A DNA stretch of 51,205 bases, from assembly GCA_021777535.1 (NCBI GenBank), contig JAJYDN010000015.1:1-51205 (forward strand), in the 5' to 3' direction. Origin of the DNA: Pseudomonadota bacterium (lineage in GTDB: Bacteria; Pseudomonadota; Gammaproteobacteria; Acidiferrobacterales; Acidiferrobacteraceae). Position numbers and translations under genes: made by a program. Below the pieces are notes generated by a model. The model was not told the origin of the DNA. It ran no database searches and worked only from the letters and a program-made list of their open reading frames with translations. Shown piece by piece: positions 10,857-19,054 of the stretch (its first letter is position 1; each line of letters starts with the position of its first letter).

Positions 10857-10932
10857 GCTCCCTTCGTCTAGTGGCCCAGGACGCTGGCCTCTCGCGCCGG
10901 TAACAGGGGTTCGAATCCCCTAGGGAGCGCCA
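10857..10932 (+). tRNA. tRNA-Glu (anticodon CUC)
   Basis: The 76-base gene folds as a cloverleaf: acceptor GCTCCCT/AGGGAGC, anticodon stem CTGGC/GCCGG with loop CTCTCGC (anticodon CTC reading GAG), T-arm GGGGT-TCGAATC-CCC, discriminator G and an encoded CCA at 10930-10932. The D-arm sequence CGTCTAGTGGCCCAGGAC is typical for tRNA-Glu. A single-codon CUC species normally supplements a UUC tRNA-Glu located elsewhere. Confidence 0.95.
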
Positions 10933-15342: not shown

Positions 15343-15945
15343 CCACACCGGCGCGCGGGCACCAGGCGGCCCTGGACTTCTTGCACGCGGTGGGGCGGTC
15401 TCCGCGACCGGCACCTTTCCAGCCCCCCTGCAGACACGGCCGCAGGGGGCAGTCCCGGCCCTGAACGGATACCACCCGACGCACAGGTTTACGGACCCGG
15501 GTATCCACCAAGCAGGCCGGTCGCGGCGCCCCGGCGACTGACTCCACGCCCTTTCGTGCAGCCGGCAGGGGATACCGGCCTCCCTGTGGCGGCGTACGCA
15601 GGGAACCCCAGGGGCCGCGCGATGAAGGCTCGGCCACGCGCCAGGTAGTCGTGCGGTCTGCGTAAACCGGTGTCGATGCCGGTGAACCGGCAACCCCCGG
15701 CAAGGCAAGGCCACCGGTCCGCACCCGGACCTCCACCGCCGACACCGGCCCAGGCACCGGGGCCGCAACCCGCCAAAACACGAACGAGCCGCTCCAGATT
15801 GCGGCAAGCGGCCACTGTACGGCGCCCGTAGAGCTCCTGATGTTGCAATTGTTGCCCAGACCCCGCGGCCCCTCCTTTTTGGACCCCGGGCTCCCAGGTC
15901 CGAAAACGGCTAGCACGTGTGCTTTAGCAAGACCATACTGCATCC
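15343..15945. other. gene-less GC-rich stretch with hairpin
   Basis: About 600 bases with no recognised gene. Open frames on both strands exist, including a 119-codon minus frame at 15489-15848, but their composition (many Gly, Arg, Pro) is what GC-rich non-coding DNA gives. CCCCCTGC (15424-15431) and GCAGGGGG (15442-15449) form an 8-bp hairpin 80 bases after the epimerase gene, without a T-run; it may help end that transcript. Confidence 0.45.
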
Positions 15946-17394
15946 ATGATGCTCGATCCGCACACCTGTTACCGGGCGCTGTGTGCGCGCGACGCGCGCT
16001 TCGATGGACGTTTTTTCGTTGCGGTTTCCTCGACCCGGATCTATTGCCGGCCGGTGTGCACCGTAAAGCCGCCGCGACGCGAGAACTGCCGCTTCTATCC
16101 GAGCGCGGCAGCCGCAGAATCCGCCGGCTACCGGCCCTGTCTGCGCTGCCGGCCGGAGCTTGCCCCTGGTAACGCGAGCATTGACGCGACCAAACGCCTT
16201 GCGCAGGCCGCGGCGAACCTGCTCGAGGACCGGGCACTCGAGGAGGAAGGGCTTGTGCCGCTCGCTGCGCGCCTTGGCATCACCGACAGGCATCTGCGGC
16301 GTGTCTTCAAGACCGAATTCGGCGTCTCGCCGATCCAGTTCGCGCAGACCCAGCGGCTGCTGCTTGCCAAACACCTGCTCACGGACACGAAGCTGCCGAT
16401 CACCGAGATCGCATTCGCCAGTGGCTTCGCCAGCGTACGCCGTTTCAATGCCCTGTTCCGCGAACGTTACCGTCTGCAGCCGGGCCGCCTGCGGCGTCAC
16501 GCGCCAGCGTGCAGGTCATCCGACGCGCTCACGTTCGAGTTGAGCTTCCGCCCACCCTACGACTGGGAAGCGCTGTTAGCGTTTTTGAATGGCCGGGCAA
16601 TCGCGGGCGTCGAGGCAGCCGGCGCGCACGGCTACCTGCGCACGGTGCGGATCCTGCATGGCGGCAAGGAACATCGTGGCTGGATCGAGGTCGCGCCGTC
16701 GAAAAAGAAACCCGCGCTACGCGTAATGGTTGCGGCCTCGCTCGCCCGTGCACTGCCACCGCTTTTGTCCCGCGTGAAGACGCTCATGGATCTCGCCTGT
16801 AACCCGGTGGAGATCGGGCAGGCACTCGGCGCCCTTGCCAGGCGCCGCCCCGGATTACGGGTACCCGGCGCTTTTGATGGCTTTGAGGTCGCCGTACGCG
16901 CAATCCTTGGTCAGCAGATCAGCGTGGCGGCCGCGCGCACGCTCGCAGGCCGATTCGCTACGGCATTCGGTGAACCACTGAAGACGCCATATCCAACCCT
17001 CACGATGCTGTTCCCGACGGCCGAGCAGATCGCCGCGCTCGCGCCCCGGCAGATTGCCCGGATCGGCCTGCCCGCGAAACGTGCCTGCGCACTCCGGGCC
17101 ATTGCGCGCGCGCTCGCCGACGGTGACATCCATCTCGCGCCGGACGCCGACGTCGAGGTGACGCTCGAGCGGCTGCGCGCGCTTCCTGGAATCGGTGAAT
17201 GGACCGCGCAGTACCTGGCGATGCGTGCGCTCGCCTGGCCCGACGCGTTCCCGCATACCGACTACGGGGTAAAGAAGGCCATGCAACTCGACGATCACAA
17301 GCGGGTGCTTGCCGCCGCCGACGCCTGGCGGCCGTGGCGCGCCTACGCAACGATGCATCTGTGGCAATCTCTTGCCAAAGAAGGGGCGGCATGA
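15946..17394 (+). CDS. Ada/AlkA fusion: methyl sensor-regulator plus 3-methyladenine glycosylase
   Basis: A 482-residue fusion. Residues 1-80 are the Ada zinc domain with Cys34, Cys38, Cys65 and Cys68 (YCRPVC...PCLRC), where the first cysteine takes methyl groups from DNA phosphotriesters. Residues 85-170 are an AraC-type helix-turn-helix (LAARLGITDRHLRRVF). Residues 180-290 match the AlkA N-terminal domain, and the rest is a HhH-GPD glycosylase with ILGQQISVAAARTL, LPGIGEWTAQYLAMRAL and catalytic Asp439 in PHTDYG. It should sense methylation damage, activate transcription and excise alkylated bases. Ogt overlaps its stop by four bases. Confidence 0.92.
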   Translation: MMLDPHTCYRALCARDARFDGRFFVAVSSTRIYCRPVCTVKPPRRENCRFYPSAAAAESAGYRPCLRCRPELAPGNASIDATKRLAQAAANLLEDRALEEEGLVPLAARLGITDRHLRRVFKTEFGVSPIQFAQTQRLLLAKHLLTDTKLPITEIAFASGFASVRRFNALFRERYRLQPGRLRRHAPACRSSDALTFELSFRPPYDWEALLAFLNGRAIAGVEAAGAHGYLRTVRILHGGKEHRGWIEVAPSKKKPALRVMVAASLARALPPLLSRVKTLMDLACNPVEIGQALGALARRRPGLRVPGAFDGFEVAVRAILGQQISVAAARTLAGRFATAFGEPLKTPYPTLTMLFPTAEQIAALAPRQIARIGLPAKRACALRAIARALADGDIHLAPDADVEVTLERLRALPGIGEWTAQYLAMRALAWPDAFPHTDYGVKKAMQLDDHKRVLAAADAWRPWRAYATMHLWQSLAKEGAA

Positions 17395-17897
17395 AGCGCT
17401 ACGCCTACTACGACAGCCCTTGTGGACACATGCTGCTGGTGGCAGATGGAGAGGCGCTGTGCGGTGCGTATTTTGCCGGGCAAAAACATTTCAGGCATGT
17501 GGACGATCACTGGCAGTACGACCCGCACGCGGCACCGCTTGGGCAGGCAAAGCGCGAGCTTGATGAATACTTCCGTGGCACACGCAGAGTGTTCTCTGTA
17601 CCGCTCTGCGCGAGCGGTACGCCATTCCAGCAGCGCGTGTGGCGCGCGATCCAGTCCGTTCCATTCGGCGAGACGATCAGCTATGCCGAGCTTGCACGGC
17701 GCGCCGGCCATCCGGGCAGCGCGCGCGCCACGGGGGCGGCGACCGGACGCAACCCGATCGGCGTGATCGTGCCATGTCACCGCATCGTAGGGGCCGACGG
17801 CAGTCTCACCGGTTATGCTGGCGGCCTCGCCATCAAGCGCCTCCTGCTTGCGGTGGAATCTGGTTCACCGCGCATCACGATGCACGCTATCGGATAG
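17391..17897 (+). CDS. ogt: methylated-DNA-protein-cysteine methyltransferase
   Basis: A 168-residue Ogt-type protein that removes O6-methylguanine methyl groups in a suicide reaction. The acceptor motif IVPCHRIV carries Cys129; PFGETISYAELARRAGHPGSARA is the DNA-binding helix-turn-helix and GYAGGLAIKRLLL the C-terminal end. The ATG at 17391 overlaps the stop of the Ada/AlkA fusion (ATGA), and a good GAAGGGG precedes it. The fused protein lacks the Ada methyltransferase domain, and this separate gene supplies exactly that missing activity. Confidence 0.95.
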   Translation: MKRYAYYDSPCGHMLLVADGEALCGAYFAGQKHFRHVDDHWQYDPHAAPLGQAKRELDEYFRGTRRVFSVPLCASGTPFQQRVWRAIQSVPFGETISYAELARRAGHPGSARATGAATGRNPIGVIVPCHRIVGADGSLTGYAGGLAIKRLLLAVESGSPRITMHAIG

Positions 17898-18360
17898 TCG
17901 ATACGTGCAGGCACGCGAGCCATGGCAAGCGCTGCCGCGCTGCTGCACGGGACGATCCACCGCCTTGCATCACGGAATGCCGCAGCGAGGGCAAAAGGAT
18001 ACCCGCCTCGGCCGCTCGTCGTGACGCGGCCCCTTGCGCAGACCCCACTATATTCCTTACAACGCGCAGCGGGGTAAGTTCCACCGGCAATCGTGTTCTG
18101 CATTGCGCGAGCAATGGGGACATCTTCCAGCACGGAGACATCGAGGAGAGATTCCGGCGATTTATCATCGCCTGGCGTCTGCATGAATGAGTGCACGGTC
18201 TGCTTGGCGGCACTTCTGTGTCCGTTGCGCATGCTATTTTGCAACATGCATGAACAGTATTTCTCGCTTTCCACCGTTGTCTATTTTATTGTCTTATTAA
18301 AGTTTCCTTGTATGTCGATTACATTTTTATACGATTGCATGTATGTATCAGTGTCCGACT
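17898..18360. other. no protein gene; includes AT-rich stretch
   Basis: No family-like protein is visible. Bases 18220-18360 are clearly richer in A and T than the rest of the window. Several promoter-like hexamers occur there, for example TTGTCT (18289-18294) with TATGTC 16 bases later, and TTGCAT (18335-18340), pointing toward the hairpin series at 18405-18493. Confidence 0.45.
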
Positions 18361-18493
18361 AAGGTCTTATATCAGCTCGCAACCCATTGCCGAATAATAG
18401 GGGTTCCGCTCGTCCTCCTCCCTGAGCGGCGCCTTAAACCTTTAAGGCCTTTCCGACCTCCGGCTTTTCCCCCCTAGCCCGGAGGTTTTTTTT
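18361..18493 (+). ncRNA. candidate small RNA with three hairpins
   Basis: Three hairpins follow each other on the plus strand: CCGCTC/GAGCGG (18405-18410 with 18424-18429), the perfect GCCTTAAA-CC-TTTAAGGC (18431-18448) and the terminator at 18456-18493. No protein gene ends here: ogt stops almost 500 bases upstream, with an AT-rich, promoter-like region in between. This is the layout of a small RNA gene. The 5' end is a guess; I recognise no known RNA family (not 6S, 4.5S, tmRNA or RNase P). Confidence 0.4.
18456..18493 (+). terminator. Rho-independent terminator
   Basis: ACCTCCGG (18456-18463) pairs with CCGGAGGT (18479-18486) and is followed by an uninterrupted run of eight T (18486-18493). 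It is the clearest intrinsic terminator in the window. Confidence 0.85.
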
Positions 18494-18715
18494 GTCTTGC
18501 CGCGGGCTGACCCTCCTGCGCAGGTGGCCGAAGCCCCGAACAGAGGACCGACAAAAGCCCCATATTTTGTGTTCGTCTGGCCATATAGCCGCAATATCGG
18601 GCCTTTGTCCGATGACGGCCCGAGGTGCACTTCCTTAGACTCGCAGCCAGTGAATTATGACACCCAGCTTTTTAGTGGGTTGTTCAGCGTTCCACCAACA
18701 TCAAGGAGCCTATTC

Positions 18716-19054
18716 ATGCCGAATGAGCGCAAAAGTAAGCGCGGGTTCGCGGCGATGGACGCGAACAAACAGCGCGAAATCGCCAGCAAGGGCGGCAAGG
18801 CCGCACACGAGAAAGGTACTGCCCATGAATTCACTCCCGAAGAGGCGCGCGAGGCGGGCCGCAAGGGCGGGGAGGCAGTGAGCCAGAATCGCGAGCACAT
18901 GGCAGCCATCGGGCGCAAAGGAGGCGAGAGTTCCCACGGCGGCTGGGAGCGGACACGGCCTGGTCATGAACGGGAACACGCGGAATCCGAGCAACGCGAG
19001 GGGGTCGGCCGGCATGGCGAGCATACTCCCGAGCCCAAGCCCGGAAAATCCTGA
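18716..19054 (+). CDS. KGG-repeat stress protein (YciG/GsiB-like)
   Basis: A 112-residue, very hydrophilic protein with three KGG repeats (IASKGGKAAHEKG, AGRKGGEAVSQNR, IGRKGGESSHGG), the mark of the stress-induced KGG family (E. coli YciG, Bacillus GsiB). Such proteins are small, probably disordered and linked to desiccation or general stress; their mechanism is not established. The start at 18716 was chosen because AAGGAG lies eight bases before it and MPNERKSKRGFAAMD is typical. The tail (HGEHTPEPKPGKS) is low-complexity. It stands alone between the candidate small RNA and a terminator-like hairpin. Confidence 0.88.
   Translation: MPNERKSKRGFAAMDANKQREIASKGGKAAHEKGTAHEFTPEEAREAGRKGGEAVSQNREHMAAIGRKGGESSHGGWERTRPGHEREHAESEQREGVGRHGEHTPEPKPGKS

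Follow-up and report, generated by a model that had tools for sequence, protein, structure and literature searches.

Anti-hemB (RF02837), the ncS04 RNA of Burkholderia cenocepacia, is the described RNA family closest to the one analysed here. In the available text of the report on that organism, ncS04 showed no significant change across the tested conditions, and the CU-rich unpaired regions of B. cenocepacia small RNAs were predicted to lie over ribosome-binding sites (PMC5688073). Our candidate lies in the window, the whole 51,205-nucleotide stretch of DNA that was analysed, which is contig C75 of a 2.3-Mb Acidiferrobacteraceae genome. It resembles anti-hemB in its three hairpins, its CUCCUCCCUGAGCGG first hairpin and its T-rich terminator, but it is located at a KGG-motif gene and not at polA, has another promoter and scores below the cut-off of the family. 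A second described system, alpha-r14/NfeR1 (RF02344), is similar in having a CCUCCUCCC anti-Shine-Dalgarno (aSD) loop, three hairpins and transcription under the control of stress (PMC10746234, as far as its available text goes). The same portion of that report describes NfeR1 as Hfq-independent and states that its aSD loops silence ntrB at the translation initiation region. In contrast to NfeR1, for which the available text places the motif in all three hairpins (PMC10746234), the window RNA has the exact CCUCCUCCC in hairpin 1 only, and its score of 31.0 bits with the alpha-r14 model is below the gathering cut-off of 58.8.

Two further small RNAs are comparable in location to the polA-side members of the anti-hemB type, which we call standard copies. 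In Pseudomonas aeruginosa ersA sits between polA and engB and is under sigma-22 control, according to the accessible part of PMC8575079. ErsA, which we liken to the standard copy by locus and promoter alone, shares with it the polA neighbour and a sigma-E-like promoter, whereas the window copy differs in both locus and promoter. Spot 42 of Escherichia coli, encoded by spf between polA and yihA, resembles the standard copy in place. The window RNA did not match Spot 42 at E values up to 10, and a descent from Spot 42 is unsupported because the anti-hemB model has no match at E. coli spf. Other Rfam families were more distant: sX13 (RF02232) matched weakly (20.8 bits, E 0.03, below its cut-off of 50), and the Betaproteobacteria toxic small RNA (RF02278) was not among the matches at E values up to 10. 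The sole Rfam match above its gathering threshold in the window is a tRNA gene at 10857-10929.

The small RNA gene and its conservation

Positions 18404-18493 of the plus strand are almost certainly a small RNA gene of about 90 nucleotides, as judged from sequence identity, the z-score of the fold and covariation with the standard copies. The gene is placed between ogt, which ends at 17897, and the KGG-motif gene (18716-19054, plus strand, 112 amino acids), and the initial annotation was right to put the latter in the KGG stress family, since it scores 68.2 bits with PF10685 (cut-off 20.4). Hairpin 1 (18406-18429) is formed by CCGCTC (18406-18411) pairing with GAGCGG (18424-18429), and its loop holds the aSD motif CCUCCUCCC (18414-18422). 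Hairpin 2 (18431-18448) is a perfect GCCTTAAA/TTTAAGGC (18431-18438 with 18441-18448; GCCUUAAA/UUUAAGGC). Hairpin 3 (18456-18493) is an intrinsic terminator with a C-rich loop, in which ACCTCCGG (18456-18463) pairs with CCGGAGGT (18479-18486), and it runs directly into a T8 tract (18486-18493). The initial annotation had described three hairpins, the second of them perfect and the last a terminator followed by eight T, with no gene ending nearby; all of this is confirmed in the sequence, where the hairpins occupy 18406-18486 and are more stable than shuffles, and where ogt ends about 500 bases upstream of the RNA. The candidate had been drawn from 18280 to 18493, of which the 3′ end and the hairpins stand and the 5′ part does not, the conserved RNA being the shorter 18404-18493. 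This shorter stretch folds at -33.7 kcal/mol with a z-score of -4.83, and none of 200 shuffles was equally stable; for the 221 bases from 18280 to 18500 the z-score was -2.30, with 2 of 200 shuffles equally stable. Transcription of the predicted RNA, with a putative start site near 18404, is deduced from these sequence features.

When 60 related genomes were searched at the DNA level, 13 contained a match. All 13 are of the family of the window, and two of the matches were partial (a remnant in G004 and a 27-base stretch in G010). We built a covariance model, R2, from the 11 intact window-type copies, and the covariance search in related genomes that the initial annotation had proposed was run with it: intact matches, all above 112 bits, were found in 11 of the 18 family genomes, these being the copies on which R2 was trained. 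Mean column identity over the 11 copies is 90%, and the stretch from TCCGCTC through GCGCCTTAA, including CCUCCUCCC, is invariant in their alignment, as is T8. The window-type RNA is absent from six of the 18 family genomes (G003, G006, G009, G010, G011 and G017, the last 77% complete). The G004 remnant represents a twelfth copy, in which the box and the first hairpin are kept and 33 bases match before a transposase-bearing stretch begins. The transposase-domain frame there (PF13701, 110 bits, cut-off 34.7) lies on the minus strand of locus L077, from 1456 down to 2. An exact search with GCTCGTCCTCCTCCCTGAGC found 11 stretches, nine of them apparently from family genomes, one from Litoreibacter and one from Lachnotalea, and these last two (L070 and L078) contained no anti-hemB match above the cut-off.

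Covariation was evaluated on 35 sequences, 11 window-type and 24 standard, in an alignment that was fitted to the model and thus leans towards the structure. In this set 17 of 21 pairs changed on both sides. Standard base pairs occupied 98.9% of pair cells, a proportion that fell to 34-59% when the partner was slid by one to three columns. Both-sided changes were seen in all seven modelled pairs of hairpin 2, counted on lettered rows with 12-15 of the 35 sequences gapped at each pair, and in six of the eight pairs of hairpin 3. The 11 family copies by themselves show variation at just two pairs, on both sides in one case, so that nearly all of the covariation is owed to the standard copies.

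Kinship with the polA-side copies

The best Rfam match of the window RNA is anti-hemB (E 2e-8), to whose model it aligns from end to end, and it shows the layout of that family, with three hairpins, a CU-rich first loop and a terminator. The window copy scores 39.9 bits, below the RF02837 gathering cut-off of 49.5, and three other window-type copies (L029, L030 and L031) are likewise below it. Five of six standard copies tested are above the cut-off, including the one in the window's own genome at 54.4 bits. The window copy lies before the KGG gene and does not share the polA-side locus, a location that was found here for the standard copies and is no part of the Rfam definition. We consider the window RNA very probably to be a lineage-specific paralogue of the anti-hemB type. 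In the available portions of the anti-hemB literature, a survey that lies outside most subscription journals, no second copy is described, and the accessible text of PMC2864571 holds no mention of anti-hemB.

R2 also gave weaker matches, of 27-49 bits, in 51 of the 57 genomes of the order; we read these matches as the standard anti-hemB RNA, and one kind or the other is present in 52 of the 57. Within the family the standard copy is present in 16 of 18 genomes, and of the 11 genomes that have a window copy, 10 carry both; in the window's genome the letters UCCUCCCUGAGCGG are common to the two. For the neighbourhood count we took 36 of the 52 weaker-match loci. polA adjoins 34 of these 36 standard loci, the two without it (L044 and L066) being short pieces at contig ends, and engB is in reach at 15. 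Anti-hemB-type small RNAs in this order thus adjoin polA, like Spot 42 and ErsA. The pattern GAACT-N16-20-GTCYW, which we take to resemble a sigma-E promoter, is found upstream of 25 of the 36 standard loci and of none of them in reversed sequence.

R2 scored 44-49 bits on standard copies of other families and 27-38 bits on those of its own family in this set. Because the standard copies of other families outscore those of the same family, the window copy may go back to an ancient duplication or may have been acquired from a relative. A class-wide search with the anti-hemB model gave a match at E<=0.001 in 124 of 274 genomes, above the cut-off in 14; three of 14 control genomes matched as well, so the weak matches are unspecific. 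At 23 of 30 loci from this search polA or engB was in reach. Four anti-hemB-type matches in a row were observed at G317:C3:217579-218301 and at G226:C33:13148-13886, all below the cut-off, and these groups are possible local amplifications.

Promoter architecture and a putative stress regulon

Upstream of the window RNA is a palindromic box, TCCGACTAAGGTCTTA (18354-18369, plus strand), with the consensus TCSGAC-N4-GTCSGA, followed by the -10-like hexamer AATAAT (18393-18398, plus strand). The same arrangement precedes all 11 intact copies at a nearly fixed distance, the -10-like hexamer standing N22-24 after the box in every one and reading AATAAT in nine. Across the 11 copies between 10 and 12 of the 12 consensus positions are matched; the lowest value, 10, belongs to the window copy, whose second half-site is weakened to GTCTTA where GTCCGA is expected. 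A relative of the KGG gene follows the RNA in 11 of 11 loci and has a box of its own, which in the window is TCGGGCCTTTGTCCGA (18597-18612, plus strand) and across the 11 RNA-bearing loci agrees at 9 to 11 of 12 positions. The accompanying -10 hexamer (TAGACT, 18636-18641, plus strand, in the window) follows the KGG box by N22-23 in all 11.

A box with a -10 hexamer also precedes the operon of a GGDEF protein and a LuxR-type response regulator, in 12 of 12 loci. Of the 11 loci extending as far as DPS, 10 have such a box before that gene and 6 have one before the PLDc_N/YtxH pair. Over 24 loci the combination had 63 hits against 4 in reversed sequences, a count made on loci picked for the motif and with an N4 form that was fitted on the same loci after the relatives had been viewed. 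Eight of the 63 hits, four per strand, fall outside the small RNA, KGG, GGDEF, PLDc_N/YtxH, DPS and after-DPS positions, which is about background. A 17-base form of the pattern found 8 sites in the window's own genome with two mismatches, against 3 backwards, and 46 sites in the 18 whole family genomes with one mismatch, against 8 backwards; it misses the box of the window RNA even at three mismatches. We considered BON as a member of the regulon and dropped it: the site after DPS is weak (9 of 12 positions) and present in just 5 of 12 loci. A BON gene was seen at no loci other than L117-L119 and L152, and the one in G015 begins some 270 bases past the weak site.

Because the KGG gene and the other stress genes share this layout with the RNA, the stress link of the RNA rests on the layout of its promoter besides its position. 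The promoter sequences make it quite probable that the RNA is co-regulated with the stress genes. The suggestion of a stand-alone, stress-linked RNA is thus supported by the computation, through the copies in 11 of 18 family genomes, the covariation and the box layout at the KGG gene in 11 of 11 loci.

The regulator itself (G000:C37:18814-19479) has Response_reg and GerE domains and was found at E<=1e-20 in 14 of the 57 order genomes, all of the window's family. At this threshold it was not found in G004, G010, G016 or G017. It is partial in G003 (96% identity), and in G007, where the RNA is intact, it is in two overlapping pieces. G007 is a single contig, on which some 2.4 kb separate the pieces L164 (G007:C1:2112963-2113427) and L166 (G007:C1:2110181-2110564). 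The joint distribution of RNA and regulator is mixed: G006, G009 and G011 keep the regulator and are missing the RNA, G004 has an interrupted RNA and no regulator found, and in G016 (89% complete) the RNA is present and the regulator was not found. Locus L117 (28-6850, in G000:C37) encodes a kinase, a hybrid kinase, GGDEF and the LuxR-type regulator, then PLDc_N, YtxH, DPS and BON, and several of these genes carry the shared palindrome. This gene set looks like a stress regulon of the family. The Acidiferrobacteraceae are a group known for acidophiles, and a literature search on the group and the regulon genes, carried out largely outside subscription journals, found no named stress regulon for it.

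Judged from these promoter sequences, the LuxR-type response regulator is a reasonably likely controller of the RNA. The most serious alternative is that the RNA is a stand-alone small RNA of the same kind that is controlled by RpoS or expressed constitutively, with the box serving another factor or being weakly read here. The degenerate second half-site of the window copy would fit such control, RpoS is encoded in the genome (456.1 bits, cut-off 378.7), and RNA-bearing G016 and G007 have, respectively, no regulator found and a regulator in pieces. We nevertheless consider this alternative unlikely, as a box at near-fixed spacing accompanies 11 of 11 copies of the RNA and recurs at the operon of the regulator in 12 of 12 loci.

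Possible mode of action and the origin of the locus

The explanation that we favour for the locus as a whole, with moderate confidence, is a regulator-driven, trans-acting small RNA of the anti-hemB type that silences mRNAs through its aSD loop. Under stress, the LuxR-type response regulator would bind the palindrome, whose centre is about 43 bases upstream of the predicted RNA start, and it would also drive the KGG, DPS and PLDc_N/YtxH genes together with its own operon. The sigma-E-like promoter seen at the standard copy would be missing from the window copy, which the regulator would switch on instead. The CCUCCUCCC motif in hairpin 1, possibly with the C-rich loop of hairpin 3, would then pair with the ribosome-binding sites of target mRNAs and lower their translation, perhaps with the help of Hfq. 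Hfq is present in the genome (104.2 bits). By analogy with described aSD RNAs, silencing by the predicted loop is likely.

Exact GGGAGGAGG-N3-9-ATG occurs 67 times across the 18 genomes, between 0 and 7 times in each, and some of these sites are the small RNA gene itself read backwards. No conserved target was found when 20 frames of at least 30 amino acids, drawn from 26 of 30 sampled loci, were compared; one gene recurred among the frames with target sites, in G007 and G005, both of which bear the RNA. The best duplex within the putative regulon is with the GGDEF leader, at -19.5 kcal/mol, where the 2% quantile of the background from 77 window start sites is -17.2; this pairing rests on G-rich letters that are missing from the G006 and G015 leaders.

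There is about an even chance that a stress regulon of the Acidiferrobacteraceae, run by the LuxR-type response regulator with its own palindrome, captured a second copy of a polA-side aSD small RNA. The two siblings, which share a seed, would then be fed by envelope stress (sigma-E) and by the two-component system respectively, with both signals converging on the same mRNAs. If so, the locus would provide a second aSD-type RNA with a rewired promoter, which 10 of 11 genomes retain alongside the standard one, and this joint retention would open the evolution of sibling small RNAs to study. It would also define a testable stress regulon of the RNA and the KGG, DPS and PLDc_N/YtxH genes.

The retention of both copies, and the UCCUCCCUGAGCGG letters that they have in common, could also be read as the mark of a decoy or sponge, with the window RNA titrating Hfq or targets away from the polA-side copy. 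This seems improbable, because a seed shared in the same sense would favour common targets over mutual pairing. Still less probable is a cis-acting leader or attenuator of the KGG gene. The RNA ends 222 bases before the start of that gene and a KGG relative is next in 11 of 11 loci, yet the T8 terminator closes the RNA and the KGG gene has its own box and -10 hexamer (18597-18641 in the window) in every one of these loci. That the hairpins are the far 3′ end of an ogt mRNA, as the initial annotation had envisaged for its own refutation, is scarcely credible even though ogt is the upstream gene in the window and on the same strand, since the ada/alkA-ogt stretch is unaligned in G001 and G002, where the RNA is still present, and 14 loci (some with only 1.5-2 kb upstream) gave no ogt match with tblastn at E<=1e-5; 13 of them, from 10 distinct genomes, carry the RNA or its remnant.

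The trans-acting reading places the promoter at 18354-18398, where the conserved upstream elements of the RNA sit. The AT-rich stretch just before it (18241-18350, 33% GC against 62% for the window) had been thought promoter-like, an idea that did not hold up: neither of two same-genus genomes aligns there, and a sigma-70 scan found no plus-strand site in 18241-18350, nor at the proposed promoter, 18354-18398. G001 aligns to the window up to 15337 and again from 18387, and G002 up to 15299 and again from 18353, with nothing between; the gap measures about 0.5 kb in G001 and about 0.7 kb in G002, against about 3 kb in the window. From these alignments ada/alkA, ogt and the AT-rich stretch look like an insertion or replacement in the window genome. 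The edge of this putative insertion touches the box of the RNA, which may explain its weak second half-site. Window positions 15343-18350 are possibly a DNA-alkylation repair insertion. An ada/alkA-type fusion gene lies at 15946-17394, and its AlkA part scores 238.2 bits (cut-off 229).
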